From a virus, in IMG/VR virus record IMGVR_UViG_3300048833_000013, positions 1 through 48,226 of that record: a stretch of DNA of 48,226 bases; one strand, 5' to 3'. Below, piece after piece: positions 17,328-40,012 of the stretch. Positions within the stretch are counted from its first letter, which is position 1, and every line of letters starts with the position of its first letter. The position numbers were made by a program, and so were the translations under genes. A model generated the notes under the pieces. That model saw only the letters and a program-made list of their open reading frames with translations, did not search any database and was not told the DNA's origin.

Positions 17328-18169
17328 TCTTACTAGATGGTGCAAATGATGTCTTGAGGTTGGTAACAACTTCGACAGCTAACCTTGATGTAGTAGCTGG
17401 CTTTGCTTCTTATGCTTCTGGTACTATTACTCCAGGTAAAGAGGTGGCCACTATTTCCTCAGCCACTACAACTACTATTGTAAGTGCTCCCGGTGCCTCT
17501 ACTCAGAGGACTGTTAGATTCCTTACTGTTCGTAACAGGCATGATACCACAGCTAACACAGTTACCTTACAGCTTTATAATGGCACCACTGCTTATGAGA
17601 TTTATAAAGTTACTCTAGCTGCTGGTGAAGCCTTTACCTACGACGAGGCTAATGGTTGGCAGTACGTAAGTGCCTTAGGTCTTCCCAAGACTTCTGAGAC
17701 TACTGGCTCTTCTGCACCAGCAGTAAGCTCTATTAACTTAGTGGTCTTAGCCTCTGATGTGACCAACAACAATGCTACAGCAAACACCATGGCTGACGTA
17801 ACAGGGCTGTCTTTCGCCGTGACCTCTGGTCTTAAATACTGGTTTGAGTTCTTCATTAACTACACGGCTGCGGTGACCACGACAGGTTCGCGCTGGGCGG
17901 TCAATGGTCCGACATTCACCCGCCTTGCCTATCAGGCCAACTGGTCCCTCACGGCCACGTCGAACACCTTCTCGAACGCGGTGGCCTATGACATCCCGGC
18001 GGCGTCGAACGCCACCAGCGCAAACACCGCGGGCAACTTCGCGTATATCACCGGAATCATCCAACCTTCGGCAAACGGTACGCTGATTGCTAGGTTTGCT
18101 TCAGAGGTGTCATCTTCCGCAATAGTAGCCAAGGCAGGTTCAGTCTGCCGGTGGGTTCAAGTAGCTTAA
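17324..18169 (+). CDS. Tail fibre or receptor-binding protein
   Basis: 281 residues from the ATG overlapping the preceding stop. The sequence is beta-rich with many Thr, Ser, Ala and Val. Roughly the first 165 codons and the last 30 use the ordinary AT-leaning codons of this phage. The stretch at about 17860-18060 switches abruptly to high-GC codons (GCG, TCG, ACC, CCG), then back. That points to replacement of one domain by DNA from a high-GC source, as expected for a receptor-binding module under recombination. No enzymatic motif was seen. Confidence 0.7.
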   Translation: MILLDGANDVLRLVTTSTANLDVVAGFASYASGTITPGKEVATISSATTTTIVSAPGASTQRTVRFLTVRNRHDTTANTVTLQLYNGTTAYEIYKVTLAAGEAFTYDEANGWQYVSALGLPKTSETTGSSAPAVSSINLVVLASDVTNNNATANTMADVTGLSFAVTSGLKYWFEFFINYTAAVTTTGSRWAVNGPTFTRLAYQANWSLTATSNTFSNAVAYDIPAASNATSANTAGNFAYITGIIQPSANGTLIARFASEVSSSAIVAKAGSVCRWVQVA

Positions 18170-18180
18170 TAGGAGAAATA

Positions 18181-21125: not shown

Positions 21126-21135
21126 GGAGAAATAA

Positions 21136-22353
21136 ATGGCTAAAAGACCTGTATTAAGTGATGTTACTTCACTAACTAACTCTAGTAACATTAACGTAAT
21201 TAACCAGAACTGGGACGCTATCGAAGAAGCTTTCGATAATACTATCTCCAGAGATGGTTCTACTCCAAACACTATGTCTGGAGACTTAGACCTTAATGGT
21301 AACGCCCTACTTAACGTAGGTACCATTGATGTCAATAACCTTACCCTAGATGGTCAGACTGTTACTGACTTAGCTTCTGTTCCAGAGTGGAGAGGAGCTT
21401 GGCTTACTGGTACTAGCTATGTCAAGAATGACTTAGTTAAGGAAGCTGGTAACGTCTATATCTGTCTAGTCGCCCATACCTCAAGCATTTTCTCTACTGA
21501 CCTTACCGCTGTTAAGTGGGAGCTTATGGTTAGTAAAGGTGACTCTGGGGCTGGTACTGGTGACGTTGTAGCAGCTAACAATCTTAGTGATCTTGCTAAC
21601 GTAGCTACTGCTAGGGCTAATCTTGGTTTAGGTACTGTAGCTACTGAGAACACTGTACCTGTAGCTAAAGGTGGTACTGGTGCTACTGATGAAGCTACTG
21701 CAAGGTCTAATCTTGGTCTGGCTATTGGCTCTAACGTTCAAGGTTATAGTGTTAGACTTAATACTCTAGCTACTGTAGCAGACCCTAACGACGACCGTAT
21801 AGTATTCTGGGACGATAGTGCTTCAGACTATGCTTTGTTAACTTTAGGTAATGGTCTGCGTGTCAACTCTACAACCATCTCTGCTGGGTATAACTGGACC
21901 ACTAATATCAGTACTACTGGTGCTGCTGCCTTTGACGTGACTAGTATTCCTCTCGGAATTAACGAGATAATTGTGGTATTTGATAGTGTCTCGTTAGCCA
22001 CCAAGACTGATATGCCTGTTGTCAGAATAGGCCAAGGTGGTGTTGTCACTTCCAGTGGGTATGATGGAATAGCCTCTACAGTAGACTTTACTTCAACCAC
22101 TGCTGCCGGTTGGGTCACGGGTTTTGGTCTTATGGGTACTGATGATTATATTGTAGGTACTATGAGATTGACTAGACTACCTCAAACTTTTACCTGGGTT
22201 ATGGACTTTACTGGTAGACGTGATGGAACTAACAAAGCAACACTTACCGCTTCTGGTGTGCTAAACTTAGGTGCTGACCTGAATATCCTAAGACTTACTC
22301 GTAATGGTTCTGGTAACTTTAACGGTGGAACACTAGCTGTGGGGTGGAGATAA
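21136..22353 (+). CDS. Tail fibre protein
   Basis: 405 residues. The N-terminal about 80 residues are an attachment region with the G-D-L-D-L-N-G-N-A-L-L-N-V segment typical of fibre necks. Around residues 80-130 is a carbohydrate-binding-like block (W-R-G-A-W then Y-V-K-N-D-L-V, then Y-I-C-L-V). Around 165-210 are short repeats of the A-R-x-N-L-G-L type seen in many tail fibres, with a beta-rich C-terminal knob. Codon use is normal for this phage. The ribosome-binding stretch AGGAGAAATA is the same 10-mer as before the gene at 18181. Confidence 0.85.
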   Translation: MAKRPVLSDVTSLTNSSNINVINQNWDAIEEAFDNTISRDGSTPNTMSGDLDLNGNALLNVGTIDVNNLTLDGQTVTDLASVPEWRGAWLTGTSYVKNDLVKEAGNVYICLVAHTSSIFSTDLTAVKWELMVSKGDSGAGTGDVVAANNLSDLANVATARANLGLGTVATENTVPVAKGGTGATDEATARSNLGLAIGSNVQGYSVRLNTLATVADPNDDRIVFWDDSASDYALLTLGNGLRVNSTTISAGYNWTTNISTTGAAAFDVTSIPLGINEIIVVFDSVSLATKTDMPVVRIGQGGVVTSSGYDGIASTVDFTSTTAAGWVTGFGLMGTDDYIVGTMRLTRLPQTFTWVMDFTGRRDGTNKATLTASGVLNLGADLNILRLTRNGSGNFNGGTLAVGWR

Positions 22354-27608: not shown

Positions 27609-28459
27609 GGTTTAAACTCCGGTACAAGAGGCAACTTAGCAACAGTTGTTAAAAATTTAGGTCCATTTGAGTACAAGAACGTTCTCATCGTAGGATGGCA
27701 AACTTCCTTAAAATCACAATACCCACACGCCACTGGAAGCATCATATTGCCGGACTTACCGTCCGGGATTGGACTAAAATATCTCGAAGGAGGTTTGGGT
27801 TGTGTTACGTCTTTCTTTAACTGGCTAAGCTGGTCTTGGAAAAGAAATAGTTCGTATTCTAGGCTATAGTAATCAAGAACAATATGCCCTGTAGTCTTAT
27901 CCATGACAAGGAAGGCACCACCAGTCTTATCAATAACTAAAGGGTCTTCTTTAGCACCATAGACATAGCCAGTAAGCTGCTTCATGTAGCCAAAGGGGTC
28001 ATCTGCTCTAAGCTCATTCTTCTTAAACTTAGCAAACCCCATGGTGCTTACTGATTTAACATCGACAGTCACACCATCAATAACAGCATCTCTATGGCCT
28101 ACGATACCATCTACAATAATCTCGTCTTGTTCTCCTTCTACGGTATGGCCTGCTGCTTTAGCTAGGCTAAGAATCAACCCTTCAATGATATCACCATAAG
28201 CAAACTTCAGGTGAGCATTAGCAGGAAGATCAGTCTCGTGTTCAGGTAGGTTAAGGTAGTACCAAAGCTTACGACGACAAGGAGTACCAATGTTAGACAT
28301 ACGCAATGTCTTGGCTCTTGGTTCTGTAGAAGGAACAAACCGCCTTTCGGCGGTTTGCCCCATAGATTCCTTGAAGTACTCGTTAACTGCTTTAGTCCAC
28401 CCACCCTTACCCTTAATGACATCTTCGATGTCTTGCACTAGGGTATTAATGGATTTCAT
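27605..28459 (-). CDS. RecB/Cas4-like exonuclease with probable Fe-S cluster
   Basis: 284 residues with PD-(D/E)XK motifs: G-H-R-D-A near residue 121 and V-D-V-K-S near 132. One Cys near residue 60 (G-T-P-C-R-R-K) and three C-terminal Cys (A-C-G-Y-C and E-V-C near 245-255) give the four-ligand pattern of the Cas4/AddB iron-sulfur nucleases. In podoviruses this gene takes the place of T7 gp6-type exonuclease for degrading host DNA or recombination. It overlaps the SSB gene by one base and the resolvase gene by 4 bp. Confidence 0.85.
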   Translation of the reverse strand: MKSINTLVQDIEDVIKGKGGWTKAVNEYFKESMGQTAERRFVPSTEPRAKTLRMSNIGTPCRRKLWYYLNLPEHETDLPANAHLKFAYGDIIEGLILSLAKAAGHTVEGEQDEIIVDGIVGHRDAVIDGVTVDVKSVSTMGFAKFKKNELRADDPFGYMKQLTGYVYGAKEDPLVIDKTGGAFLVMDKTTGHIVLDYYSLEYELFLFQDQLSQLKKDVTQPKPPSRYFSPIPDGKSGNMMLPVACGYCDFKEVCHPTMRTFLYSNGPKFLTTVAKLPLVPEFKP

Positions 28460-28944
28460 TAGAATGGAATCTCCATATCAACCTTAGATTTAGGCTTCTC
28501 TTCTGCTGCTGGAGCCTCCTCCTTTCGTTCAGGAAGCTCAGCCAATTCAAGCACCTTGACACTCTCAAGCCTAGTACCTGGAGACATAGAAGTGGTATAG
28601 ACAGTAAACTCTACCTCAACCACAGAACCATTAGGAATCATAACACCAGTGAACGGGGTATCATCCTTGTTCAGGACTTGAGGAGGACCACCGGCCCACT
28701 CAAAGCGCTCTTTTTCTTTTCTCTTAAATGTCGCTAGAAAATTTCCATCGTCATCGAACTTACCTTTACCCGAGGTACCTGAAGATTTATACTTAGCTTT
28801 GTTCTCTTTATCTAGAATAACATCAATCTTAAAGAGTCCACCAAAGTCATGTGGGTTACCTTGCCAATCTCTGAGTTCCTTATTGGAGTCAAAAACTTTA
28901 CTCCACATTGCTTTCCCAATTACTTTATGTTTAGTTGTTGCCAT
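28459..28944 (-). CDS. Single-stranded DNA-binding protein (gp2.5-like)
   Basis: 161 residues: an OB-fold-like body (about 5-125) followed by an Ala/Glu/Lys-rich linker and a C-terminal D-M-E-I-P-F end. An acidic tail ending in Phe is the hallmark of T7 gp2.5-type SSBs, where it contacts the polymerase and helicase. The gene lies just downstream of a near-consensus promoter at 29047-29075, so it should be strongly expressed apart from the upstream replication genes. Confidence 0.85.
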   Translation of the reverse strand: MATTKHKVIGKAMWSKVFDSNKELRDWQGNPHDFGGLFKIDVILDKENKAKYKSSGTSGKGKFDDDGNFLATFKRKEKERFEWAGGPPQVLNKDDTPFTGVMIPNGSVVEVEFTVYTTSMSPGTRLESVKVLELAELPERKEEAPAAEEKPKSKVDMEIPF

Positions 28945-29083: not shown

Positions 29084-29251
29084 TCACCATTTAACCAAAC
29101 ATTCTGGACCTACTGACACAAATGTACGGGTGGGTAACTCATATTTACCTCTATTTAGCTCACCTGTGATGTAGTATTCTCCTGATTTCCAGACGAAAAA
29201 GAATGGAACATAGACATCATTGCCAGTAAAATTTACTAGGATACCTCTCAT
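29084..29251 (-). CDS. W-tail small protein 1
   Basis: 55 residues, beta-rich with several Phe, Tyr and Trp (F-F-F-V-W near 18-21), ending exactly in V-G-P-E-C-L-V-K-W. Shares this C-terminal tail with at least eleven other small genes in the leftward region; the rest of the sequence shows no obvious likeness to them. It is the last gene before the SSB promoter. Joined to the upstream W-tail gene by TGATG. Function unknown. Confidence 0.7.
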   Translation of the reverse strand: MRGILVNFTGNDVYVPFFFVWKSGEYYITGELNRGKYELPTRTFVSVGPECLVKW

Positions 29252-29463
29252 CACTTACTCCATACAGTAAGGCAGGTAGCTCCTAGTAAGGCTGGTTGAG
29301 CACCACCAACATTACCATAATGGTATTTAGTAGGATGACTATTCGTCCCAATACTATAACCAGTTCTGTCACATCTTCTCTTACCGGAGGAGAAGTAAAT
29401 CTTTTCAGTAAGTTTCCAGCTACCTTCAACAGAAGGATCGTATTTAGATTGTACTTTAATCAT
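29251..29463 (-). CDS. W-tail small protein 2
   Basis: 70 residues, basic N-terminal half with Ser, Gly and Arg, ending L-G-A-T-C-L-T-V-W-S-K. The tail matches the shared small-protein motif with Val in place of the basic residue before Trp. The start overlaps the stop of the preceding member (AATGATTAA). No domain recognised. Confidence 0.68.
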   Translation of the reverse strand: MIKVQSKYDPSVEGSWKLTEKIYFSSGKRRCDRTGYSIGTNSHPTKYHYGNVGGAQPALLGATCLTVWSK

Positions 29464-29662
29464 TCCATTTCACCATACATAGGGGGCTAATACAAAATTC
29501 ATTGTCGACTATCACAGGTTTATGTTCCCATATTTTATTCTGATAGGAGTCTCCGTATAGTATATAGTGGCCTTCTAATAACATACAAGAATAAACATCA
29601 GGCCCACAGTCATCTTCAGGCCAAATGAATAAACCTAGTGGATTTAATGAGTCTGAAGCCAT
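29456..29662 (-). CDS. W-tail small protein 3
   Basis: 68 residues, acidic and aromatic, ending S-P-L-C-M-V-K-W-N-D. Its start lies 19 bp inside the 3' end of the polymerase-domain gene in a different frame, so it must have been fitted onto an existing gene end. The middle has a Y-I-L-Y-G-D type strand segment. No other family likeness seen. Confidence 0.68.
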   Translation of the reverse strand: MASDSLNPLGLFIWPEDDCGPDVYSCMLLEGHYILYGDSYQNKIWEHKPVIVDNEFCISPLCMVKWND

Positions 29663-30675
29663 GATTTACCTATACTAGTATTACCTGCTAATGGACAGAA
29701 GATCCCTAAGTCTTTCCCTACTTGCTCTAAAGACTTTCTTTGCAACTCTCCAAGTCTCTCTGCTTGTTCCTTAGTACCATAAACTTCTGTCTGCCACTCA
29801 TCATGAACGAAGTTGACTTGCTTGAAAGGAATACCTTCTGCCTTAGCTAGAGTACGCCATAAGATATTAGCGTGCTTCATAACAACAGCTTCACCATTCT
29901 GGAGGTACCCAGCAAGCATGTGATGCTCTGAGTCACAAGGTACCTTACGACCATCTAGACCAATGAAGTAACCTCGTCTAGCATCATTAGGAATAGTCCA
30001 GTCCTTTAGCTTCTTTAGTCCAGGTAATGCAGCTAGGAAGTTATCCACAGCTTGCTTAGCTTGCTTCTTGTTGCACCCTAGAATCTCTGCTACCTTGTCT
30101 GTAGAAGCACCTAGCAAGAAGGCATAGATGAATGTCTTAGCAGTATCCCTATCCTTACAGACAGGGCCTAGAGCCTTCTTATTCATGTTGTGGATGTCTG
30201 TCTCAAGCTTCTTGTCGCCACTGACAATAGCGTCTACATACTCTTTAGACTTCATGTAGTGAGCTAGAAGCCTAAGCTGGATACCTTCAGCATCAGTACC
30301 TACTAGCCAAGCACCATCACTAGCCTTCCAAAGGTCACGCATAGAGGCATCATAACGATGCTTAATCTCTTCTACTGGTGTCTTAGGAGTGCCTTGGAAT
30401 GGAGAAGCAATGTTGGCTTGGTTAGGATTGGAGTGAGACATACGATGGGTCCAAGCACCGATAGGCCAGAACTTACCATGAATCTTACCATCGTCCTGTA
30501 CGCAGCCTAGCCACTCTACAAGAGCCTTACGCCTACCTTCTAGAGTAAGCCACTTAACTAGGTCCTTGGCTGCTTGTGGGGCCTCTGCTGGTAGCGTAGC
30601 TAGGTTAGTCTCATCCACAGTCCAGCCGTACTTAGAATAGTGTTCAGCTTTCTCTGCGTCAGTCTTCATCTTCAC
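29644..30675 (-). CDS. DNA polymerase, polymerase-domain protein (split gene, second part)
   Basis: 343 residues carrying the family A polymerase motifs of T7 gp5: motif A D-A-E-G-I-Q-L-R at about 128, motif B R-D-T-A-K-T-F-I-Y-A-F at about 176-186, and motif C V-H-D-E at 290-293. It lacks the 3'-5' exonuclease, which is encoded upstream as a separate protein (31886-31035). Between them lie two W-tail genes. The first residues (K-T-D-A-E-K-A-E-H-Y) look like the continuation of the exonuclease protein's C-terminus, so one gene was broken into two. The halves probably assemble to a working enzyme. Confidence 0.9.
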   Translation of the reverse strand: MKMKTDAEKAEHYSKYGWTVDETNLATLPAEAPQAAKDLVKWLTLEGRRKALVEWLGCVQDDGKIHGKFWPIGAWTHRMSHSNPNQANIASPFQGTPKTPVEEIKHRYDASMRDLWKASDGAWLVGTDAEGIQLRLLAHYMKSKEYVDAIVSGDKKLETDIHNMNKKALGPVCKDRDTAKTFIYAFLLGASTDKVAEILGCNKKQAKQAVDNFLAALPGLKKLKDWTIPNDARRGYFIGLDGRKVPCDSEHHMLAGYLQNGEAVVMKHANILWRTLAKAEGIPFKQVNFVHDEWQTEVYGTKEQAERLGELQRKSLEQVGKDLGIFCPLAGNTSIGKSWLQTH

Positions 30676-30868
30676 ACCATTTAATTAGACACTCTTCGGT
30701 TACTTTGGTATTACCTGAGGTTTTATTATATGGACTATATGAGGCATCACATTTGGCTAATTTAAACCTTGTATAATGATTGTCTATAGGTCCTGTAGAC
30801 CTTCTATCTTTAATAACAAAGGGTGTCTTTGTGTGACCGGTAAGCCATAAACCATTCTCACTGTTCAT
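30659..30868 (-). CDS. W-tail small protein 4, inside the split polymerase
   Basis: 69 residues, Thr/Lys/Ser-rich, ending T-E-E-C-L-I-K-W-C-E-D-E-D, the shared tail plus an acidic extension. Its last 17 bp overlap the start of the polymerase-domain gene in another frame. Its own start overlaps the stop of W-tail 5. With W-tail 5 it forms a two-gene insert between polymerase halves. Confidence 0.7.
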   Translation of the reverse strand: MNSENGLWLTGHTKTPFVIKDRRSTGPIDNHYTRFKLAKCDASYSPYNKTSGNTKVTEECLIKWCEDED

Positions 30869-31038
30869 TCAGACCACTCCACTAATAGTGTCGGGCCAAG
30901 AGGTTTGTTTTGAATAAAATTCAAATTCATTGGATATTTTTCGTAGTGTATTGTAAAGTGATGAAGACCAGTGCAGTATCGTCCTGATTCTTTTTGAAGC
31001 CTTATTGTATTGGGTGTTTTAGCTTCTGAATAAATCAT
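30865..31038 (-). CDS. W-tail small protein 5, inside the split polymerase
   Basis: 57 residues, with basic and aromatic residues (H-H-F-T-I-H-Y), ending G-P-T-L-L-V-E-W-S-E. Start and stop are joined by ATGA overlaps to the exonuclease protein upstream and W-tail 4 downstream. The tail codons GTG-GAG-TGG also form the ribosome-binding site for the next gene. W-tail 5, 6 and 7 are all exactly 57 residues long. Confidence 0.68.
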   Translation of the reverse strand: MIYSEAKTPNTIRLQKESGRYCTGLHHFTIHYEKYPMNLNFIQNKPLGPTLLVEWSE

Positions 31039-31886
31039 CTTGATTCCTTTTCAAACTTCTTGAAACCTTTAGTCTTTACTACAGGCTTCCACCCAGCATC
31101 CCATAAAGCATCAATACGATCCACAGAAGAAGCAGGATTAAAGGCTTCATAGTCAAAGCAGATAAGCTCACCATCCTCTACTTTAGTAAGAGGGTACTTA
31201 TCCATAGCATCTTCTACCGTAGAGAATAGAGAACCATCTTTCTTAGTACGATACTTGAGCCTATTAACCTCGACAAGCTTAGGTGGGAAGGCTACTTGGA
31301 ATGAGTCCTCAAGCACCTTCATCTCACCATTAAGCTGCTCTAGCATCTTCTCTGCCTCTTCTTTGTCAAAACTAAAGCCATTAGTAGTCATGTCATGACA
31401 GATGATAGCCATATCATGCTCTACACGCATAGCCTTAGCCCAAGCAGGGTCCTTGATGTAGTCCTTGTAATACTCAAAGACTTCCATAAGTACCTCAACA
31501 TCCTGCTCACCATACTTAATCATCTCTGGTGTACAGACATCCCAAGGACCATCGTACTTAAGCTTCTTGAAGCCTACATGTTCACCTAATTCTTCTAGAG
31601 AATGAGTGATAAACTTATTGTAACCAACTAATCTAGAGACAACAAAGGTGTCAATGACAGACCTTGGGTTAATAAGTGGAGCCACTAACCTATTGATTAC
31701 AGGCACATCAAAAGCAATACCATTATGGAAGACCCACTTATCTGGTTGGTAGAACTCTACCCAAAACTTAAAGGTATCCATCTCAAAGAAGGTACACTCA
31801 AAGCCATCTGAGGTTTTGACTCTGATGAAATGAATCTTAGAAGGATTAAGCCCATCTGTCTCGATATCCGAAAAAGCTAATTTCAT
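31035..31886 (-). CDS. DNA polymerase, 3'-5' exonuclease protein (split gene, first part)
   Basis: 283 residues starting M-K-L-A-F-S-D-I-E-T at 31886 (GGGAAATGGGA upstream; an in-frame ATG at 31904 is less likely). It contains ExoI Asp7/Glu9, ExoII in F-H-N-G-I-A-F-D, and ExoIII Y-G-E-Q-D-V-E-V-L. It ends in the linker that in T7 gp5 leads to the polymerase thumb. The polymerase domain continues as a separate gene after two W-tail ORFs. Proofreading and polymerisation thus come from two polypeptides. Confidence 0.88.
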   Translation of the reverse strand: MKLAFSDIETDGLNPSKIHFIRVKTSDGFECTFFEMDTFKFWVEFYQPDKWVFHNGIAFDVPVINRLVAPLINPRSVIDTFVVSRLVGYNKFITHSLEELGEHVGFKKLKYDGPWDVCTPEMIKYGEQDVEVLMEVFEYYKDYIKDPAWAKAMRVEHDMAIICHDMTTNGFSFDKEEAEKMLEQLNGEMKVLEDSFQVAFPPKLVEVNRLKYRTKKDGSLFSTVEDAMDKYPLTKVEDGELICFDYEAFNPASSVDRIDALWDAGWKPVVKTKGFKKFEKESR

Positions 31887-32056
31887 TCCCATTTCCCTAG
31901 GCAACTACCAGAAAGTAGAGCAAAGTTATCTTCTACAAACATTAGTCTTCTATACTCAAACCAATGAGCGTTAACACCATGATCCCCTTTATGATCCACA
32001 ATACCGATATCATAACAGTCATTATAGGTGTCTAAGATTAAAGTACCTTTCTTCAT
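31883..32056 (-). CDS. W-tail small protein 6
   Basis: 57 residues from the ATG at 32056 (TGATG with W-tail 7). Beta-rich with Asp, His and Gly (D-I-G-I-V-D-H-K-G-D-H-G), ending S-G-S-C-L-G-K-W-E. Its stop overlaps the exonuclease start (ATGA), and its tail codons GGG-AAA-TGG-GA provide that gene's ribosome-binding site, which supports tight coupling. Confidence 0.7.
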   Translation of the reverse strand: MKKGTLILDTYNDCYDIGIVDHKGDHGVNAHWFEYRRLMFVEDNFALLSGSCLGKWE

Positions 32057-32229
32057 CACCATCTCACTAGAATTAGAGGAGCTAAGTACGTCTGACCCTT
32101 TTCTTTGTAAATAGGCTCTGACCATCTAGTAGGGTAGTCGTACATATTATGGCTATGTAGCCAAGGATAAGTAAACTTAAAGTCATTCTTCTGAAATGAT
32201 ACTTGACCATGTTGATTAATATTAATCAT
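32056..32229 (-). CDS. W-tail small protein 7
   Basis: 57 residues from the ATG at 32229; an upstream in-frame ATG lies within the previous gene. Asn/Gln/His-rich N-terminal half with several Trp and Tyr, ending exactly A-P-L-I-L-V-R-W. Translated from a strong GGAGG site made by the W-R-G codons of W-tail 8. Confidence 0.68.
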   Translation of the reverse strand: MININQHGQVSFQKNDFKFTYPWLHSHNMYDYPTRWSEPIYKEKGQTYLAPLILVRW

Positions 32230-32411
32230 CAGCCCCTCCAAAACCCAAGACATACTGGTCCAAGTAAGGTATTCTTACCAGAAGCTATATGAGCTTTTGT
32301 TTCAAAAGGTGTCTGAAGTTTTTGGTATTTTTCCATATTGTAGTAAATATATATCATACTGTTCTCTTCAAAACACCACCAATCGATAGACTTAGAATCT
32401 TTAACTAACAT
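32229..32411 (-). CDS. W-tail small protein 8
   Basis: 60 residues with a W-W-C-F and a Y-I-Y-Y-N segment, ending G-P-V-C-L-G-F-W-R-G. The basic residue before Trp is replaced by Phe. Joined by TGATG to the HNH gene upstream and to W-tail 7 downstream. First of a run of three W-tail genes between the HNH gene and the polymerase exonuclease gene. Confidence 0.68.
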   Translation of the reverse strand: MLVKDSKSIDWWCFEENSMIYIYYNMEKYQKLQTPFETKAHIASGKNTLLGPVCLGFWRG

Positions 32412-33004
32412 CAGATACTAGCCTCCGTAATAATGGTAGTTTTAGATTTTAGATCATTTAGCACAGCCTCAAGCTCGTCTATAGTAGCGTTACTTTTTAG
32501 CAGATTTGCTCTTTGTGATATAATTCTTACATTACCTTTTACATAACCAAGCTCTGGTTTAATCTTATCAATTGATGGTGAATTATCGCAAGAATTATCC
32601 TTACCTTTTAGCAATTCTATTCCTAGAACAGGACAAACTTTAGGTATTTTTATATCAGACAAATCTAAATTAAACGGAATGTTTTTCTTTTTAGCGGATG
32701 CCTTTGACCTATAAAGTATACTTCTCTCTGGATTATTATCTTTCCAGTCATACCTTACTTCTGATGTATTATTAAATAAAGACCTACATTTATTAGAGCA
32801 ATAAAGTCTTTTTGTTGAAAGAAGCACAAACTCCTCTCCGCAGTGTAGGCAAATACTTTTCCTGACTTCCGATTTATTCAAACCAGGTTTTCTCTGTTTA
32901 CTGGAGCAGACCTTACACCAACACTGTAGCCCGTCTTTTTCCCTACTTGCTTTACTGAACTCTAACTCTGGCTTTACAGAGCCACATCTAGAACATCTCT
33001 TCAT
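32411..33004 (-). CDS. HNH homing endonuclease with zinc fingers
   Basis: 197 residues. The N-terminus carries three Cys-pair zinc sites (C-S-R-C at 4-7, C-K-V-C near 31, C-L-H-C and C-S-N-K-C near 52-73). The C-terminal part has C-P-V-L-G and S-P-S-I-D-K-I-K-P-E-L-G-Y-V-K-G-N-V, the same nuclease family as 26842-27276. It is the first gene after the promoter at 33026-33054. Free-standing homing genes of this type often sit beside polymerase genes, as here. Confidence 0.82.
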   Translation of the reverse strand: MKRCSRCGSVKPELEFSKASREKDGLQCWCKVCSSKQRKPGLNKSEVRKSICLHCGEEFVLLSTKRLYCSNKCRSLFNNTSEVRYDWKDNNPERSILYRSKASAKKKNIPFNLDLSDIKIPKVCPVLGIELLKGKDNSCDNSPSIDKIKPELGYVKGNVRIISQRANLLKSNATIDELEAVLNDLKSKTTIITEASI

Positions 33005-33025
33005 ATTAAAGTCCTCCTGATTAAT

Positions 33026-33054
33026 AGTGTATCATACATAGTACTATTTGTCAA
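33026..33054 (-). promoter_or_regulatory. Sigma70-type promoter for HNH and polymerase genes
   Basis: Minus strand: TTGACA (33054-33049) and TACACT (33031-33026) with a 17-base spacer. The -35 box overlaps the stop codon of the primase-helicase gene. Transcription would begin near 33019 and read the HNH gene, W-tail 8-6 and both polymerase genes. An AGGAGG site precedes the HNH start. Confidence 0.8.
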
Positions 33055-34577
33055 GAAGTAGTTTGGTCTATGATTGTGGTTTTTGGATCATAGTACACAG
33101 CACCAGCATACCCAAGCTTACTGAAGGGTCTGTTCTTAGTTACATAGAACTTAGTGGTGTTACTAATCTCTTCATCCAAAGACTCTTTGTCCCTCTCAAT
33201 CTTGATAAGCATAATAGCTTCTTCTTCAAGAGACTTAGCATACTTAGCATGGCCATCATCGTTAACGTGGCTAATCATGATTACTCCGATGTTAAGCTCT
33301 TTAGCTATTTGGGCAAGGTTACTTGCGATTCTTGTAAGCACGTTTGTTGCTCCTTCAACTCCTCCCATGTAGGCAAGGCGTTGTACATGATCCACGAAAA
33401 CATAATCAGCGCCATAAACACTAGCCGCCAGTCTAACATAGCTTAAAATCTCCATAGGGTCATCACCAGATTTCATTTCAAAGACAATGGTGCGGTCACC
33501 TTGTGCCATCTCTTGAGCAGCTTTGATGACTTCTTCTTCGCTGATACCATTCTCAGCAGCATCTTCCTTAGTACGTACATTGATACCAAGTTTATAGGTA
33601 GCCATAGCACGGTAGGTTGTAGACTTCTGTTCCTCCATGTGGAGTAGACCAACCTTCTGAGTAGAGTTAGTCAGTAAACCAGTCTCTAGCTTTCTAAAGA
33701 TTTCTGTCTTACCAGAACCAGGAGGTGCCATAAGGAATGTAAGCCCACCCTTAACAATACCTCTGATTACCTTATCTAATTCTTCAATACCAGTCCTTAC
33801 ATATTCATAAGGATTCTCTTCCTTAAGGATGTTCTCAATCTGAGAGTCAGAGCAGAAGAAGTTATCTGGAGTCCACCGTTGAGGTCTAAGGGCAGACCAC
33901 TTAAGCTCATCTTTCTGGCCAGCCATAAGGGCTTCGTTGGCATCCTTCCACTTAGTTAGAGGAACATAGAAGAACTTACTAGGTAGAGCCTTGTAGAGCC
34001 TCTCAGCAGCCTTCTTACCAGCCTTGTCTAACTCACCAGCGTAGACAATCTCTTGGAAGCTATTCAAATAATCGTAATGCTTCTTGACAAAAGAATCTCC
34101 AATAGAGGCGGAAGGTAAACTGAGTACTGGCCAAGTGGAATCCATTGATTGGTAAAGTGAAGCAGCATCGAACTCTCCTTCAGTGAGATATAAACGTTTA
34201 GAAGATGCGGGGTTAACCTCGGGGCCAAAGAAGTCAACAAGAGGTACACCAACGTCTTTAAACCAAAATACCTTATCGCTGTAACCACGGTACTTAGTAT
34301 TGTTAGGATATTTAAACGCATATCTATACGGCTTTCCTGTGTCATCAGTATGAATTACAATACCATATTTCTCAGCTACCTTAGGATCAAGGTTACGGAT
34401 ACCATCGTAAGTAAAGCCTTTAGGCTCTTGCTTTTTAATGTCTACATATTCTTCAGTCAAAATCCATTTCCCTCCACAACCACCATGACAATATCCTTTA
34501 CCTTTCTCATACCAAGAGAAAGCATCCTTGCTACCACACTCAGGGCAAGTAGCATGAGTTACCACTGGACTAGACAT
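33051..34577 (-). CDS. DNA primase-helicase (T7 gp4-like)
   Basis: 508 residues: a zinc finger at the N-terminus (Cys11, 14, 30, 34), a TOPRIM-type primase core (L-T-E-G-E-F-D-A at about 131-138, then G-E-L-D-K-A-G near 181), and a RecA-fold helicase with Walker A P-P-G-S-G-K-T at 285-291 and Walker B V-F-V-D-H near 393. It unwinds DNA and makes primers at the fork. The acidic Phe tail of T7 gp4 is absent. The ATG lies inside the 3' end of W-tail 9, out of frame, with an AGAGGAAAGG ribosome site. Confidence 0.92.
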   Translation of the reverse strand: MSSPVVTHATCPECGSKDAFSWYEKGKGYCHGGCGGKWILTEEYVDIKKQEPKGFTYDGIRNLDPKVAEKYGIVIHTDDTGKPYRYAFKYPNNTKYRGYSDKVFWFKDVGVPLVDFFGPEVNPASSKRLYLTEGEFDAASLYQSMDSTWPVLSLPSASIGDSFVKKHYDYLNSFQEIVYAGELDKAGKKAAERLYKALPSKFFYVPLTKWKDANEALMAGQKDELKWSALRPQRWTPDNFFCSDSQIENILKEENPYEYVRTGIEELDKVIRGIVKGGLTFLMAPPGSGKTEIFRKLETGLLTNSTQKVGLLHMEEQKSTTYRAMATYKLGINVRTKEDAAENGISEEEVIKAAQEMAQGDRTIVFEMKSGDDPMEILSYVRLAASVYGADYVFVDHVQRLAYMGGVEGATNVLTRIASNLAQIAKELNIGVIMISHVNDDGHAKYAKSLEEEAIMLIKIERDKESLDEEISNTTKFYVTKNRPFSKLGYAGAVYYDPKTTIIDQTTS

Positions 34578-34765
34578 CTATGACCAATAGCCTTTCCTCT
34601 GTAACCTGACCTCTGCTCCCACTCCCAACCTTTAGTCTTAAAATCATTTAACTTACGTGACCATCCCTTTGCTGGGAGGCCTTCTTTGTAAAGAAAACAG
34701 AGGAATGCTTCTCCAGTTAGGTAACCCTCAATACCGTCACCATGGTAATAAAGAATGTTATTCAT
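34559..34765 (-). CDS. W-tail small protein 9
   Basis: 68 residues, with several Trp, Gly and Lys (K-G-W-E-W-E), ending exactly G-H-R-C-L-V-Q-W. Its last 19 bp contain, in another frame, the start of the primase-helicase, so the conserved tail codons also encode the primase N-terminus. Its start overlaps the end of W-tail 10. Confidence 0.7.
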   Translation of the reverse strand: MNNILYYHGDGIEGYLTGEAFLCFLYKEGLPAKGWSRKLNDFKTKGWEWEQRSGYRGKAIGHRCLVQW

Positions 34766-34976
34766 CAGACCACCTTACTAGGAAAAGAGGAGTAATAGGT
34801 TTGTAATTTACACCATACTTTTCATAAAGTTCTGATGATACACCATCCTTAGAATATAGTGCTAATTGTAGATTCCTGTAAAAACCATTATTACCATAAC
34901 CAGAAGTGCATTTCTTATCTGCTGTAATAACGTCAACAATATCACCGAGTGGATGGTAGGCGATAAAATCAGTCAT
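34758..34976 (-). CDS. W-tail small protein 10
   Basis: 72 residues: an N-terminal beta-like segment (G-D-I-V-D-V-I-T-A-D), a Gly/Asn/Tyr-rich middle, and the end T-P-L-F-L-V-R-W-S-D-E. The codons for V-R-W (GTA-AGG-TGG) form a ribosome-binding site for W-tail 9, whose ATG lies a few bases later inside the S-D-E codons. Start overlaps the zinc-ribbon gene by 8 bp. Confidence 0.7.
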   Translation of the reverse strand: MTDFIAYHPLGDIVDVITADKKCTSGYGNNGFYRNLQLALYSKDGVSSELYEKYGVNYKPITPLFLVRWSDE

Positions 34977-35130
34977 CGTAATACAACTCCTTAATGATGT
35001 CTAACTCATCCAGGTCCTCATCATACTCTGATAAAGCATCGTATATTTCGTCTAGACATTCTTCACAATAGTATTCTTCCCATTGTGCTTGCCATGAAGC
35101 ATAAGGTGAGTCGCAGCTACGGCATCTCAT
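34969..35130 (-). CDS. Small zinc-ribbon protein
   Basis: 53 residues with two Cys pairs, C-R-S-C at 3-6 and C-E-E-C at 22-25, a compact zinc-ribbon, followed by a very acidic C-terminal helix. It does not have the W-tail ending. Such mini zinc proteins may bind RNA polymerase or DNA; function unknown. Overlaps neighbours by short out-of-frame joins on both sides. Confidence 0.65.
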   Translation of the reverse strand: MRCRSCDSPYASWQAQWEEYYCEECLDEIYDALSEYDEDLDELDIIKELYYDD

Positions 35131-35375
35131 TCTTCTACAGCCTTTAGAGTTACTCTAATAAACCTAGCATGATTTTTCTTATACTCCTCGGTCTTTTTCT
35201 TCTTATCGTAGTAATTAAGAGAAGCAAATTCTTTTGGCAACCAATGCCAATCGTGGCAACCAAAAGCATTTTTAGCCGCCGCAGAACTACCCCAGAAGAA
35301 TTTACCTGAAGGGGTTTTCCACATCTGTCCTTTTGGGTATTCTACGATCCAACCTTGAATATCTGAATTAATCAT
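35127..35375 (-). CDS. Small protein, numod-like sequence
   Basis: 82 residues with an aromatic N-terminal half (W-K-T-P-S-G-K-F-F-W-G-S then A-A-A-K-N-A-F) that resembles the short NUMOD-type DNA-recognition repeats found in homing endonucleases, and a Lys-rich C-terminal half. There is no nuclease domain. It could be a leftover targeting module or a DNA-binding accessory. Lacks the W-tail. Starts at ATG 35375, overlapping W-tail 11. Confidence 0.5.
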   Translation of the reverse strand: MINSDIQGWIVEYPKGQMWKTPSGKFFWGSSAAAKNAFGCHDWHWLPKEFASLNYYDKKKKTEEYKKNHARFIRVTLKAVEE

Positions 35376-35575
35376 TAATTAAAATCCCATCTAGTTAATG
35401 CTTCTGATGATAACAATCTAGACTTACCATTCTTAGCCCAGTCTTCTTTATCTTCTTCATATACGCTAAATGGTTTATCAAATAGTTTAGATTTTCTATC
35501 ATTGTTAATAGCCCTAAACTCTTTAAAGAAAAAGTAGATAAACTTATCGCTATAAGTTTGCATATTCATCCACAT
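35375..35575 (-). CDS. W-tail small protein 11
   Basis: 66 residues, basic and Phe-rich at the N-terminus (F-I-Y-F-F-F-K), acidic middle, ending S-S-E-A-L-T-R-W-D-F-N. The Cys/Leu position is Ala here. The start at 35575 overlaps the stop of the CobT-like gene by TGATG; later ATGs at 35569 and 35563 are possible. Confidence 0.66.
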   Translation of the reverse strand: MWMNMQTYSDKFIYFFFKEFRAINNDRKSKLFDKPFSVYEEDKEDWAKNGKSRLLSSEALTRWDFN

Positions 35576-37434
35576 CAGAAGTGTACCTTTCCACCAGTAA
35601 GAAGGTTACTAAGTTGTGTGAAGATAGCGCCAGATAGGTCATTGACCTTAGTGATAGACACAGACTTAGGATAGATATTCTCCACATGGTCTGTAAGGAT
35701 ACCTACACCAACACATTCTACACCATTTTTACCACACTCGTCAATAGCCATCTTAAGGCCAGAGATAAGTGCGCATCTACCATAATGGTCATCATAAACG
35801 TTAATGGTGGCGTTGGCAGGCTGACCGTCACTAAGCACAAAGAGAATCTTACGCTTCTCAGGACGCTTAAGTAACTCATGGTAGGCCCAGATCACAGCGT
35901 CGCGGTCAGAGTTGTTGCCAGAAGCACACTGATCGATAGCTGCAATAGGACCTTTAGCAAGTTGAAGAGGTTCAGAAAAGTCTTTGAACTTGATAATGTT
36001 AAGAGGTTCATACCTATGATACTTAGAACCATCACTCTTAGCTTTACGTACTAGCTTCTCAAGACCTCCACCCCAACCCTCAAGACCATTGTCAAAGCCA
36101 CTAATCTGGTACCTGATTTGAGTACCCTCAAGGCACTCAGCAAAGGCTACAGTAGCCTCTCTAGCAACCTTGATCTTGTCCCTACCCATAGAGCCACTAA
36201 GGTCAATAAGGAAGTGTACAGCAGTATCAAGCTCCATACGATCCTTACGCTGCTTATACACGCTAGGAGAGCCTAAAGAGCCTGCTACAAGGCGCTTAGT
36301 ATCAAGCTTACCATACTCCCTACCAAAGTCCCAGTCACGGTTCTCTTTGGCCATCAAGGCTCTACGAAGCCTAGCCTTCATGGTGTTAACTAGACCACCG
36401 AGGTCCATCTTAACCTTCTCATAGTCAATGGCAGGAGTATTTTGGATGAGCTTATGTCTGTAATCCTCACGCTTATTGTTACTGTTACGGGTAAAGACCT
36501 CATCCCAACGGTCACTGAGTACACGGTAGTTCTCACCAACAGCCTTAGCTTCATCCATATAGGTGTCAATCTTAGATTGAACCTGCTTCTTTACAGCTTC
36601 AATAACATCTGGAATAGCTTTACCAGCTTCAGCTTCACCTTCAGCCTCAATCTGCTTCTGAGACTTCTTAGGCTTACCTTGAGTAGGGTCACCGTCCTTA
36701 TCAAACTGGAAGTCTTTGGGGTTGCCGTCCAGACCTTCACCACCCTTATCTGGTTCACCTTGCTCAGGCATAGGCTCAGGCTTCTTGCCTTGCTCAGACT
36801 GTTCGATAAGCTTCTCAATAGCCAAGGCTAGGTTAAGAATCTCTGAGGTATTCTTACACGCCCTAGCCTCATCAGCAAACTTATTACCCCATGCCTTGAA
36901 GCGGTCAGGCATCATGTCAAACATCTTCTTGTTAGGTTCACCAGCATAATCAAGTGTGCCAGCACGGATGATGCTTGCCATAACGGCTTCAGGGTTGATA
37001 GTAGTAAACACCTCCTTATTAGCTTCCATAAACTCAAGCTCATGTTTACCAACGTTTTCACGCATAGCGGTAAAGTTCTTACGTGAGCCGGGGTATTCTT
37101 CCATAACTAAACCTTCAAGTCTAACATCTTCAAGGCAGTTAGAGATATTGAAGGCCAGTCTAGACTGAGTTTCAGCAAAAGCTTTGACTACCTCAAAGTC
37201 AGTATGTCTAACGTGACCAGCCTCATGGTCCAAAAGGCCACGCATAGTCATTACTTCTTCATGAGTAAACTCAAGATTGTCTGGCAGAGAAGGAAGAGTA
37301 ATCTCCTTACCATCCGTATAGGCGGTAGTATTCTGATGACCATCAGCCTCAAAGACTACGCTTACTTCCTTGTTACGCCCAAAGACAGCACCAGTCTGCT
37401 GAATCTCATGGGCAAGCATATGACCTTTCTTCAT
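35575..37434 (-). CDS. cobT: CobT-like VWA protein with N-terminal metallopeptidase-like motif
   Basis: 619 residues from the ATG at 37434 (GGAGTGGAG upstream). The C-terminal domain (about 405-619) is a von Willebrand A fold with MIDAS D-L-S-G-S (411-415), as in CobT, the cobaltochelatase partner of CobS. The N-terminal region has H-E-A-G-H at 70-74 and N-C-L-E-D-V-R-L-E near 99-107, a zinc-peptidase-like HExxH plus Glu arrangement found in some VWA proteins. An acidic, Lys/Glu/Gly-rich linker (about 210-275) joins them. With the AAA+ protein upstream it may insert a metal into cobalamin precursors or remodel a protein. Confidence 0.83.
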   Translation of the reverse strand: MKKGHMLAHEIQQTGAVFGRNKEVSVVFEADGHQNTTAYTDGKEITLPSLPDNLEFTHEEVMTMRGLLDHEAGHVRHTDFEVVKAFAETQSRLAFNISNCLEDVRLEGLVMEEYPGSRKNFTAMRENVGKHELEFMEANKEVFTTINPEAVMASIIRAGTLDYAGEPNKKMFDMMPDRFKAWGNKFADEARACKNTSEILNLALAIEKLIEQSEQGKKPEPMPEQGEPDKGGEGLDGNPKDFQFDKDGDPTQGKPKKSQKQIEAEGEAEAGKAIPDVIEAVKKQVQSKIDTYMDEAKAVGENYRVLSDRWDEVFTRNSNNKREDYRHKLIQNTPAIDYEKVKMDLGGLVNTMKARLRRALMAKENRDWDFGREYGKLDTKRLVAGSLGSPSVYKQRKDRMELDTAVHFLIDLSGSMGRDKIKVAREATVAFAECLEGTQIRYQISGFDNGLEGWGGGLEKLVRKAKSDGSKYHRYEPLNIIKFKDFSEPLQLAKGPIAAIDQCASGNNSDRDAVIWAYHELLKRPEKRKILFVLSDGQPANATINVYDDHYGRCALISGLKMAIDECGKNGVECVGVGILTDHVENIYPKSVSITKVNDLSGAIFTQLSNLLTGGKVHF

Positions 37435-37642
37435 TCTCCACTCCATTGAATTAGTAACTCTGGTCCAACATAAGCCATATTTTCACCCCACCACCACCCA
37501 TATTAATGTTTATTTTATATGGGTAACTACGTTGCTCAATATAATAGTATCTGTTATTACTATCTACTAAGAACGTAGGAACCTTCATAGTATTAGGAAG
37601 TCCGATAAAGATACCATGCTTAGGCTTTTCCGACACGATCAA
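37431..37642 (-). pseudogene. W-tail small protein 12, frameshifted
   Basis: The start frame gives 63 residues, ending at 37451 in L-M-L-D-Q-S-Y, without the family tail. In another frame the same DNA reads G-E-N-M-A-Y-V-G-P-E-L-L-I-Q-W-S-G-E and stops at 37431, overlapping the CobT start (ATGA) exactly as other members overlap their neighbours. A one-base change in or near the G-rich run at about 37488-37500 would join the two. It may be a real mutation, an assembly error or a programmed shift. The N-terminal part is beta-rich with Y-Y-Y-I. Confidence 0.6.
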
Positions 37643-39305
37643 CCAATCCTTTCAGTACCGCTGCATCAGCCTCGGTAGCACGATCCACAATGGTCTGAGT
37701 CAGAGCACGATGGACATTCTTCTTGTCACCGGGATAGATACCATTAAGGAATGTGAGAGCATTGGCAATAGCAAGGATACCACGAGGACTGATAGGCTGG
37801 AGAACCTTAGCTTGCTCAAAGGCAGTAAGATGCTCAGTACTGTACTTAGTGATAACAGTAGACTCTTCATCACTAAGAGCAGGATAGTGAGCCTTAAGCA
37901 GAGCCTTACGTTCCTTCTCCTCAAGGTAAGGAACCTTAGCCCAGATGGTAAAGCGGTCAAGGAAGGCCAGAGACTGAGGTCTAGCACCCTGATACATACC
38001 ATGCTCATCACCCTGACCAACCGTGTTGCCAGTACCGAACATACGGAACTGCTCATGCGGCTTAACCACACGACCACCATCTTCAGTGATGTTAAGCCCG
38101 TTACCTTCAAGAGCAGATTGCATAACGTAGCTAACATCGGGGCGGCAGAAGTCCAACTCGTCGAAGGCTACCATGTAGGGGCCAGACATAGCCCTAGGAA
38201 GCATACCATCCACAAAGACAGACTTACCATCTTGCAGAGTATCACGACCAATAAGGTCCATACGGGTAATCTCAGAATCGAAGTTGATACGCATGAAGGG
38301 CCAGTTAAGGTGCGCTGCGATCTGTTCAACTAGAGTAGTTTTACCAGAACCAGTGTGGCCCTGGAGATACATACGCTGATTAGTGATCACAGCATGAAGC
38401 GCACGGACAAGAAGCTCCTCACGGAAGATATAGTTAGGATCAATGCGAGGAACATCAGGATGAGGACCTTCCCACTCCCAAACAGGAACTTCAAACTCAA
38501 GCTTCTTCAGAGTGGGGAAGACTTTGCCGACAGGTTGCATAGTAATCTTACCATTAGGAATGGTCCCATCACCGACAACTTTAGCGTCCTCAAACGGCTT
38601 AGTGGCTAACTCCTTGGTAATACGAGCGATTGTCTTAACAGCATCGTCACGTTCTTTAGCAAGTTTAGCGACTTCAGCTTCGGCATGAGCCTTTACCTTA
38701 GTGGCTTCTTCCATAAGCTTAGTCTGGACAGCACCAGAGGTCTTGATATAAGCTTCTACCTCAGTCCACTTAGGCATAGACATAGAGGTAAGCACATGGT
38801 CAAGGCTCACACGCTTCTCGTTAGAGATTTCAGGAATCTTAGGGATACCAAGAGCAGTATAGTCTACCTCTACATAACCACTCTTGAATGCTTGGAAGTG
38901 ACGATAAGCAGCCCAGAGAGTCTTAACGAATACCTTCTCATCCACAAAGTTAGGGATAATCTCAGCATCGTTAGGAGCATCCATAACTACCTTATAGAAA
39001 TGCTCTGGAGTAACAAGATCAGCAGCCACAAAGATAACTGCGAAAGGAGGAATGATGTCCAGAGTACGGTAGAAAGTCTTACCAAACTTAGTAGCGATAG
39101 CTTCATGGTAAGACGGGTAGTTATGTTTCATGTACCGATCAAAGGCATGGCGTACATCCTTGCCCTTCATAGTCCACTTCTCAGGATCAGTGATTTCAAT
39201 CTCTTTAACAAGGTCTTCGATCTTATCAGAGCCAGAAGAACCATTGTCTTTGAAGTGGAAGTCACACAGCGGGTAGATTTCTTTAGCGAGTTCGTTGAAG
39301 TTCAT
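37620..39305 (-). CDS. cobS: CobS-like AAA+ ATPase (MoxR/CobS family)
   Basis: 561 residues. The C-terminal AAA+ module has Walker A G-H-T-G-S-G-K-T at 316-323, Walker B V-A-F-D-E near 379-383 and later sensor/arginine-finger segments. The first about 185 residues are phage-specific and a predicted coiled coil (about 190-240) links the two parts. CobS works with VWA protein CobT in aerobic cobalt insertion; MoxR/VWA pairs also act as chaperones. A CobT-like gene follows after one small ORF. A link to the cobalamin-dependent RNR is plausible but not proven. Confidence 0.88.
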   Translation of the reverse strand: MNFNELAKEIYPLCDFHFKDNGSSGSDKIEDLVKEIEITDPEKWTMKGKDVRHAFDRYMKHNYPSYHEAIATKFGKTFYRTLDIIPPFAVIFVAADLVTPEHFYKVVMDAPNDAEIIPNFVDEKVFVKTLWAAYRHFQAFKSGYVEVDYTALGIPKIPEISNEKRVSLDHVLTSMSMPKWTEVEAYIKTSGAVQTKLMEEATKVKAHAEAEVAKLAKERDDAVKTIARITKELATKPFEDAKVVGDGTIPNGKITMQPVGKVFPTLKKLEFEVPVWEWEGPHPDVPRIDPNYIFREELLVRALHAVITNQRMYLQGHTGSGKTTLVEQIAAHLNWPFMRINFDSEITRMDLIGRDTLQDGKSVFVDGMLPRAMSGPYMVAFDELDFCRPDVSYVMQSALEGNGLNITEDGGRVVKPHEQFRMFGTGNTVGQGDEHGMYQGARPQSLAFLDRFTIWAKVPYLEEKERKALLKAHYPALSDEESTVITKYSTEHLTAFEQAKVLQPISPRGILAIANALTFLNGIYPGDKKNVHRALTQTIVDRATEADAAVLKGLVDRVGKA

Positions 39306-39316
39306 GTTAGTTCCTT

Positions 39317-39523
39317 TCAGTCGTTAGGGTTGAATTGTAGAAGGTTGAAGGGCATTAGTTCGACAGGAGTTATATGGGGCTTTCTATCAAACCTATACTT
39401 AAGTGTAATAGAAAGGCTTTCTGTGTTTAGAGAGCGCAACCCATCAGTGTAAGACGAACCTTTTTTAATTACCCAGAAGGTGTGCACTTCCAGGCAAAAG
39501 ACTTTACAAGACTCTAAATCCAT
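39317..39523 (-). CDS. Divergent W-tail-like small protein
   Basis: 68 residues, ending V-E-L-M-P-F-N-L-L-Q-F-N-P-N-D. The P-x-x-L-L-Q-F core followed by an acidic end resembles the W-tail with Phe in place of Trp, and the gene occupies the same kind of slot (directly before cobS), but the match is weaker than for the other members. Its start lies 20 bp inside the previous gene, out of frame. Confidence 0.5.
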   Translation of the reverse strand: MDLESCKVFCLEVHTFWVIKKGSSYTDGLRSLNTESLSITLKYRFDRKPHITPVELMPFNLLQFNPND

Positions 39524-39722
39524 CGAATCCCTCCGTCTTTACTAGTGAGTTACCGAAAATGCACACAGAATTATTGGCTAGCTCATTTAGGATAGTAGTA
39601 ATCACCTCATCCCGTTTGCTAGCATCAAGTAACCCATACTCAGCAATAGGAATCATAGCAGTTCCCATGATACCTACCACAGTAAGCTTTTGTAGTGGGA
39701 GTTCTTTAATTTCAGCAGTCAT
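39504..39722 (-). CDS. Small unknown protein between W-tail genes
   Basis: 72 residues, alpha/beta, Leu/Ile/Glu-rich, beginning M-T-A-E-I-K-E-L-P-L-Q and ending F-D-G-F-R-V-L. No W-tail and no recognised domain. It overlaps W-tail 13 upstream by 11 bp and the divergent member downstream by 20 bp. Confidence 0.58.
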   Translation of the reverse strand: MTAEIKELPLQKLTVVGIMGTAMIPIAEYGLLDASKRDEVITTILNELANNSVCIFGNSLVKTEGFDGFRVL

Positions 39723-39912
39723 CTGACCACCTATATAGATTACGTGGAGCTATGTAGAAGAGTTTACTCCTTATACCTGAGTAATCCATTAATCTTCTAT
39801 AGAAAACTTCATAGATATCAGAGCAAAAAATAGTTCTACTCTTATCAGATAATCTCACAAATAAAGCTCTTTTACCATCAAAGGACATTCCTATGTAATA
39901 AAGACACTCCAT
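39712..39912 (-). CDS. W-tail small protein 13
   Basis: 66 residues, with basic and aromatic residues, ending A-P-R-N-L-Y-R-W-S-D-D-C. First protein gene after the tRNA cluster, with its own AGGAG site seven bases before the ATG, so it is not coupled to an upstream gene. The AGG-TGG codons of R-W precede the next start. Confidence 0.7.
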   Translation of the reverse strand: MECLYYIGMSFDGKRALFVRLSDKSRTIFCSDIYEVFYRRLMDYSGIRSKLFYIAPRNLYRWSDDC

Positions 39913-39927
39913 GCTAACTCCTGTAAT

Positions 39928-40012
39928 TGGTGTGGGGTAGGGGAGTCGAACCCCTACGCACTATGGCAACAGATTTTAAGTCTGTCATGTCTACCAATTC
40001 CATCAACCCCAC
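39928..40012 (-). tRNA. tRNA-Leu (UAA)
   Basis: A full canonical tRNA: acceptor GTGGGGT/ACCCCAC, anticodon stem ACAGA/TCTGT with loop CTTAAAA (anticodon TAA), a long variable arm as expected for Leu, T-arm AGGGG/CCCCT with loop TTCGACT, and an encoded CCA (39928-39930). It reads UUA, a codon frequent in this AT-leaning phage and rare in high-GC hosts. Confidence 0.93.

Follow-up and report, generated by a model that had tools for sequence, protein, structure and literature searches.

Tiny genes with a shared C-terminal tail in the replication block of a marine phage group: candidate copies of one diverged family

What are the tiny genes, different in body and alike in their last residues, that stand between the replication genes of a marine phage? 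The question was raised by an earlier note on a 48 kb virus record (IMG/VR record IMGVR_UViG_3300048833_000013, 48,226 nucleotides, analysed over its whole length and termed here the window), which also encodes a T7-type head-tail connector and a terminase. The note listed 12 small leftward genes ending in a common motif closed by Trp, and read them as varied effector parts joined to a common docking tail or sorting signal. All 12 were recovered on the minus strand, with positions and tails unchanged. The two further genes that it had named as likely members also stand: the gene at 37431 carries its tail in a shifted frame, and in the gene at 39317 the motif ITPVELMPF is followed by nine more residues to the C-terminus, with the AAA ATPase gene 11 nt downstream. 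The window thus contains 14 tiny genes (one frameshifted), whose products are about 55 to 85 residues long. The starts of some were set by stop/start overlap, and on this basis the probable starts of the genes at 29084, 32056 and 31883 were corrected to 29251, 32229 and 32056, respectively. The frameshift in 37431-37636 lies near a GGTGGTGGTGGGG run, and could be either an assembly error or a sign of a decaying copy.

The replication block of the window encodes, in order, an AAA ATPase, a CobT-like VWA protein, a primase/helicase, the exonuclease (polN) and polymerase (polC) halves of a family A DNA polymerase, an SSB-like protein and a Cas4-type exonuclease (Table 1). The slots in which tiny genes occur are the junctions of the AAA, CobT-like VWA, primase, split polymerase and SSB genes; they are found ahead of the AAA gene and at junctions as far as SSB, and none lies beyond it. 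Their placement among replication genes, as described in the earlier note, was borne out for all copies. The primase/helicase is 61% identical to that of Roseobacter phage CRP-13. The SSB-like gene gave no Pfam match, and we take it to be SSB from its position and sequence. A tRNA-Leu (TAA) gene lies immediately upstream of the block (39928-40012), and an Rfam search of the block returned nothing but this tRNA.

Table 1. Tiny family genes and replication genes in the block of the window, by descending coordinate
Feature	Coordinates	Strand	Evidence
Tiny family gene, tail YIAPRNLYRW(SDDC)	39712..39912	-	ORF and tail score
Tiny family gene, divergent tail ITPVELMPF	39317..39523	-	ORF reading
AAA (MoxR/CobS-like) ATPase; upstream block limit bar the two preceding tiny genes	37620..39305	-	Pfam AAA_5, 9e-19
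Tiny family gene, frameshift between body and tail, tail AYVGPELLIQW	37431..37636	-	Three-frame translation
CobT-like VWA protein	35575..37446	-	Pfam CobT_C, 8e-26
Tiny family gene, tail LSSEALTRW	35375..35575	-	ORF and tail score
Tiny family gene, tail ITPLFLVRW	34758..34976	-	ORF and tail score
Tiny family gene, tail IGHRCLVQW, 19 nt overlap with primase start	34559..34765	-	ORF and tail score
T7-type primase/helicase	33051..34577	-	Pfam DnaB_C and Toprim_2
Tiny family gene, tail LGPVCLGFW	32229..32411	-	ORF and tail score
Tiny family gene, tail LAPLILVRW, start moved to 32229	32056..32229	-	ORF and tail score
Tiny family gene, tail LSGSCLGKW, start moved to 32056	31883..32056	-	ORF and tail score
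DNA polymerase A, exonuclease half (polN)	31035..31886	-	Pfam DNA_pol_A_exo1; alignment with intact polymerases
Tiny family gene between polymerase halves, tail LGPTLLVEW	30865..31038	-	ORF and tail score; polymerase alignment
Tiny family gene between polymerase halves, tail VTEECLIKW	30659..30868	-	ORF and tail score; polymerase alignment
DNA polymerase A, polymerase half (polC)	29644..30675	-	Pfam DNA_pol_A, 5e-31
Tiny family gene, tail ISPLCMVKW	29456..29662	-	ORF and tail score; homologue in L099 (X215, same slot)
Tiny family gene, tail LGATCLTVW	29251..29463	-	ORF and tail score
Tiny family gene, tail VGPECLVKW	29084..29251	-	ORF and tail score
SSB-like protein, downstream block limit	28459..28944	-	55-72% identity to the L004 and L099 equivalents

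The tails of the window follow the approximate C-terminal consensus [ILV][GAST]PxxLxxW. A position-specific score over the last 11 residues, derived from 13 tails by leave-one-out, ranged from 11.8 to 22.5 for the left-out members, against a best value of 9.2 among about 905 other stop-to-stop ORFs of the window; the best score per randomised window was 8.2 to 14.0 (20 windows). The score thus sets the members apart from every other ORF of the window. This separation, together with the recurrence of the tails in five other genomes, rules out chance or artefact as their origin.

In total, the layout was detected in the window and five relatives, comprising 70 tiny genes in six records, mostly of metagenomic origin and including one short fragment. 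The genomes of this marine phage group carry up to 16 very different copies each. Of the large relatives, L004 is the closest, with a primase 70% identical. Its 14 tiny genes, of which four separate the polymerase halves, have the tail consensus [ILV][GA]PxE[LI]xxW, and the fragment L099 contains two, between polymerase and SSB. Both share the Trp tail of the window. In the remaining three genomes, L113, L034 and L118 (GenBank PQ867845, Cobavirinae), the 13, 11 and 16 tiny genes, respectively, end in a sister tail, [ILV]PxEF[LFM]. The primase gene lies between the polymerase halves in the three PxEF genomes, and before both halves in the window and L004. The window terminase is 62% identical to each of those of L118, L034 and L113; judged by such shared replication and packaging genes, the window phage group would fall within the Cobavirinae. 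Two family genes of L118 (PQ867845.1, 4778-4972 and 7005-7196) are absent from the deposited annotation.

Recognition of these relatives depended on the search used. Loci L005-L020 and L023-L033 were empty by a score for the Trp tail only, L113 was recognised by reading its ORFs, and L034 by a tail search free of any preset motif over most of the fetched loci. No tail-family copy was found outside the block in L034, L113 and L118 or in the regions of L004 that were read (about 1,450 ORFs together), nor in the rest of the window, and none of CRP-13, CRP-9, CRP-5, ICBM2, CRP-810 or the intact-polymerase relatives examined carried tiny family genes. A scan of viral contigs for the tail-DNA pattern gave, beyond the L004 contig, single matches only, with no further tails alongside, and a scan of bacterial genomes for a related polymerase found none.

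The codons of the tail were analyzed further. In the PxEF group, the tail Pro occurs in all 37 of 37 genes through four different codons (CCG in 12, CCT in 11, CCA in 10 and CCC in 4), and codons for Leu, Phe, Met and Val all occur at the position after Phe. Third codon positions vary freely in the window and in L004, and the tails are not nucleotide-identical between genes. The motif is also retained where no gene start follows it, as in the gene at 29084 of the window, downstream of which there is no start for 139 nt (to SSB), and at 11908 of L034. Since the Pro is kept via all four codons and the motif is kept in the absence of a following gene, the tail is, on this codon evidence, selected as protein. 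The earlier claim of a shared protein-level C-terminal motif is thereby upheld.

The claim that the bodies upstream of the tail look unrelated fared less well. Leave-one-out HMMs were built from bodies only, with shuffles and decoy small phage proteins as controls. Among Trp-tail members, the left-out bodies, with tails removed, outscored on average 89% of the decoys and 65% of same-composition shuffles; for the PxEF group, the figures were 92% and 84%, respectively. A G-[ILVM]-[YWF]-like signature was found close to the N-terminus of 15 of 34 and 11 of 30 members (26 of 64 together), versus 2 of 34 decoys. AlphaFold models of one member per tail group displayed the same order of elements, namely four strands, then a last strand that ends at the conserved Pro, and a short helix (pLDDT 77 for the first model and 60, which is low confidence, for the second). 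Part of the resemblance between bodies reflects composition, which is rich in Tyr and Ser. Weak but real, the resemblance supports statistically the view that the bodies have diverged within one family. An HMM trained on either tail group placed members of the other no more than marginally above their shuffles (p 0.04 and 0.09), and hhalign of the two profiles was not significant (E 0.12), so that the case for a common origin is built on synteny, shared layout and weak signals in the sequence; the Trp-tail and PxEF groups are probably one family.

These results bear directly on the reading in which unrelated effectors have in common a C-terminal tag, for docking, sorting or degradation, that one phage or host partner recognises. 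Such a tag would agree well with the tail being the most conserved part of the protein and selected as such, and with its uniformity within a genome and difference between lineages, as though it co-evolved with one partner. The bodies, however, are not unrelated, and in some members as many as 8 residues come after the motif. In the predicted structures, moreover, the tail is not a free tag, but forms the last strand and short helix; it probably closes a small beta-rich fold with a final strand and a helix cap. A set of varied effectors carrying one tag is thus not supported, because the bodies appear to have diverged within a single family; we consider this reading unlikely, although it survives best among the alternatives.

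Copies of the tiny genes appear to move or turn over, because recognisable relatives occupy different slots. Among the three PxEF genomes, whose flanking proteins are 47-76% identical, 25 cross-genome body pairs exceeded the shuffled null, and only 5 of these (20%) share a slot, against a base rate of 17%. Two genes of L004 match at 26 of 27 nucleotides in the tail and at 16 of 21 around the start, with no similarity between these ends. Conversely, the gene at 29456 of the window and gene 215 of L099 are recognisable homologues in the same slot, indicating that some copies stay put over shorter times. We infer from these comparisons that copies are gained, lost and shuffled at junctions; no excised, donor or target sites proving movement were found.

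In the window, the family A polymerase is split inside a variable linker with no sequence lost, and two tiny genes lie in the gap. The exonuclease and polymerase domains are on separate ORFs in the window, L004, L113, L034 and L118, as well as in the cobaviruses ICBM2 and CRP-5, in which split polymerase ORFs are annotated without tiny genes. Tiny genes were therefore ruled out as the origin of the split, which is older than, or independent of, them.

Mobility of this kind might also be expected of selfish mini-genes that are of no use to the phage and propagate through recombination between short junction sequences, carrying their own start, Shine-Dalgarno and stop. The high copy number, the slot changes between genomes, the common junction DNA around different bodies in L004 and the presence of copies inside the split polymerase would all suit such elements. 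On the other hand, about 69 of 70 frames are intact and the C-terminal motif is conserved, which is beyond what would be expected of useless passengers, and confinement to the replication block would be left unexplained. This reading is likewise improbable, and is ranked second among the alternatives.

A feature overlooked by the earlier note is that the tail codons usually hold the ribosome-binding site of the next gene, and often its start codon. The stop overlaps the next start in 11 of 13 cases in the window and in 28 of 37 in the PxEF group, and a Shine-Dalgarno sequence of at least 4 nt, mostly inside the tail codons, was present at 24 of the 26 coupled junctions tested. Examples in the window include the gene at 39712 (an 11 nt overlap between its stop and the next start, with AGGTGG upstream), that at 34758 (TAAGG in the tail codons, upstream of the next ATG) and that at 32229 (GGAGGGG, followed by the ATG of the next gene). 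The tail DNA thus usually doubles as the Shine-Dalgarno of the next gene. Shine-Dalgarno overlap is, however, a frequent feature of compact phage operons. Among the codons for the tail Glu, GAG was favoured (26 of 34, p 0.05; 10 of 10 in L004, p 0.008).

The tail could accordingly be imagined as no more than a by-product, in the protein, of a repeated ribosome-binding signal, with the proteins serving as spacers or relays through which replication-gene expression is set. The Shine-Dalgarno sequences and start overlaps in most cases, and the preference for GAG, are what this reading predicts. It is contradicted by the retention of Pro, Leu and Phe through many synonymous codons, by the persistence of the motif at ends that lack an adjacent start, and by the large genes of the same operon, which end without the motif. 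Codon usage and the uncoupled ends rule out a purely RNA signal as the sole cause, and the RNA-level reading as a whole, third among the alternatives, is improbable.

Library searches gave no family to which the bodies could be assigned. There was no significant match in Pfam, PHROG, NCBIfam, PADLOC or PDB (NCBIfam and PADLOC being searched with the PxEF group). The weak library matches that did occur were isolated and confined to one member each, the best (E 0.0028) being to a pilot-protein family. The PxEF profile aligned at its C-terminal end with the Nbp2 SH3 at E 0.9-1.4, and no SH3 family was among the Pfam matches. Foldseek found no significant match for either AlphaFold model. A 55-residue protein of Microbacterium phage Floof (gene 52; L132, 11372-11539), which is encoded near the DNA polymerase and starts with MRSGIYRG, is possibly the weak Foldseek match of the first model, with which it was paired by length; the tail family is lacking in the half of the Floof genome that was read.

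Among known phage systems, T7-like phages carry small genes among their replication genes, e.g., T7 genes 4.x and 5.x, and resemble the present phages in having tiny accessory genes between primase, polymerase and their neighbours. To our knowledge, however, these T7 genes do not belong to a single family and have no common terminal motif. Cobaviruses (Zobellviridae, Cobavirinae), including Lentibacter phage ICBM2 and Roseobacter phage CRP-5, share related replication genes and the split polymerase; unlike the window, ICBM2 and CRP-5 lack the tiny genes and their polymerase ORFs overlap directly, whereas the cobavirus T5S1-k141_653015 carries tiny genes, labelled as hypothetical proteins. Start Associated Sequences (SAS), known from Cluster K mycobacteriophages and Cluster EF Microbacterium phages, are short repeats, with about 10-19 copies in each genome, that occupy the ribosome-binding position ahead of non-structural genes; the genes downstream of them differ (PMC3203893, PMC7302621). 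The tail similarly lies, in most cases, a few nucleotides before a start codon and holds a Shine-Dalgarno. In SAS, however, nucleotides are conserved just before starts, whereas the tail is conserved as protein with third codon positions free, belongs to the ends of one gene family and is present even when no gene follows. The internal proteins of T4 are small, with variable bodies and one short common terminal motif, an N-terminal propeptide of 10-19 residues that targets the head core and is removed by proteolysis (PMC9026906). A similar role, in which the tiny proteins are packaged and the tail is a capsid targeting signal, would account for the same layout of diverse small proteins with a short common motif, but is very improbable, as the motif is C-terminal in all members and apparently within the fold, and the genes lie in the replication operon, away from the head genes. 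Neither a library family nor a described phage system was found that fits the layout, in agreement with the earlier note.

The explanation that we favour, with roughly an even chance of being right, is that the tiny genes are movable, translationally coupled mini-genes of one diverged family, encoding diversifying accessory proteins with a beta fold. Many diverged copies of one small protein family would be present, each predicted to form a small beta-sheet domain, with the tail as its last strand and C-terminal helix cap. Each copy would be a mini-gene placed in a gap between replication genes and coupled to its neighbours in translation; because the tail codons usually hold a Shine-Dalgarno and the tail end or stop usually overlaps the next start, copies could come, go or change place at any of the junctions, including the one inside the polymerase, with operon translation left uncut. 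Within one genome, the bodies would diversify fast while the tail stays alike. At the weakest step, the products would be accessory factors for replication or host takeover, diversified by host pressure; such a role in replication or against the host is favoured by the confinement to replication genes and the fast divergence. More tentatively, and with more doubt than confidence, these genes may represent a class of mobile phage mini-genes, in which the tail-coding DNA is a translation hand-over site and copies enter an essential operon at any of its junctions and diversify once in place, to yield a dozen or more variants per genome.

If such mobile mini-genes exist, their products would perhaps be a changing repertoire for countering host defences, or serve as replisome adaptors. 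Tiny phage genes are treated as unrelated orphans, and here up to 16 of them would be one family, visible solely through the shared C-terminal motif, which gives a testable entry to tiny-gene function. The family also bears on how phages build and reshuffle tiny genes inside an essential operon, with one stretch of DNA acting as both protein core and translation signal. The sister tails, [GA]PxxLxxW and PxEFL, provide a natural experiment on the contacts of the tail.

Several other genes in and around the block were observed. A small zinc-ribbon-like protein (CxxC...CxxC) without the tail travels with the block, recurring inside it in each phage (window 34969-35130; L004 6056-6202; L113 8250-8450; L118 12859-12999). 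A conserved small gene upstream of AAA, not a member of the family, is found in the window (39504-39722, between two tiny family genes) and in L004 (810-1046; 26% identity). An HNH/endonuclease VII-like gene lies between the primase and tiny genes of the window (32411-33004) and is absent from the equivalent position of L004; it could be a homing-type element. Outside the block, positions 18001-22000 of the window, which contain structural or tail-fibre genes, have a G+C content of 53-60%, compared with about 44% elsewhere, which suggests recent acquisition.
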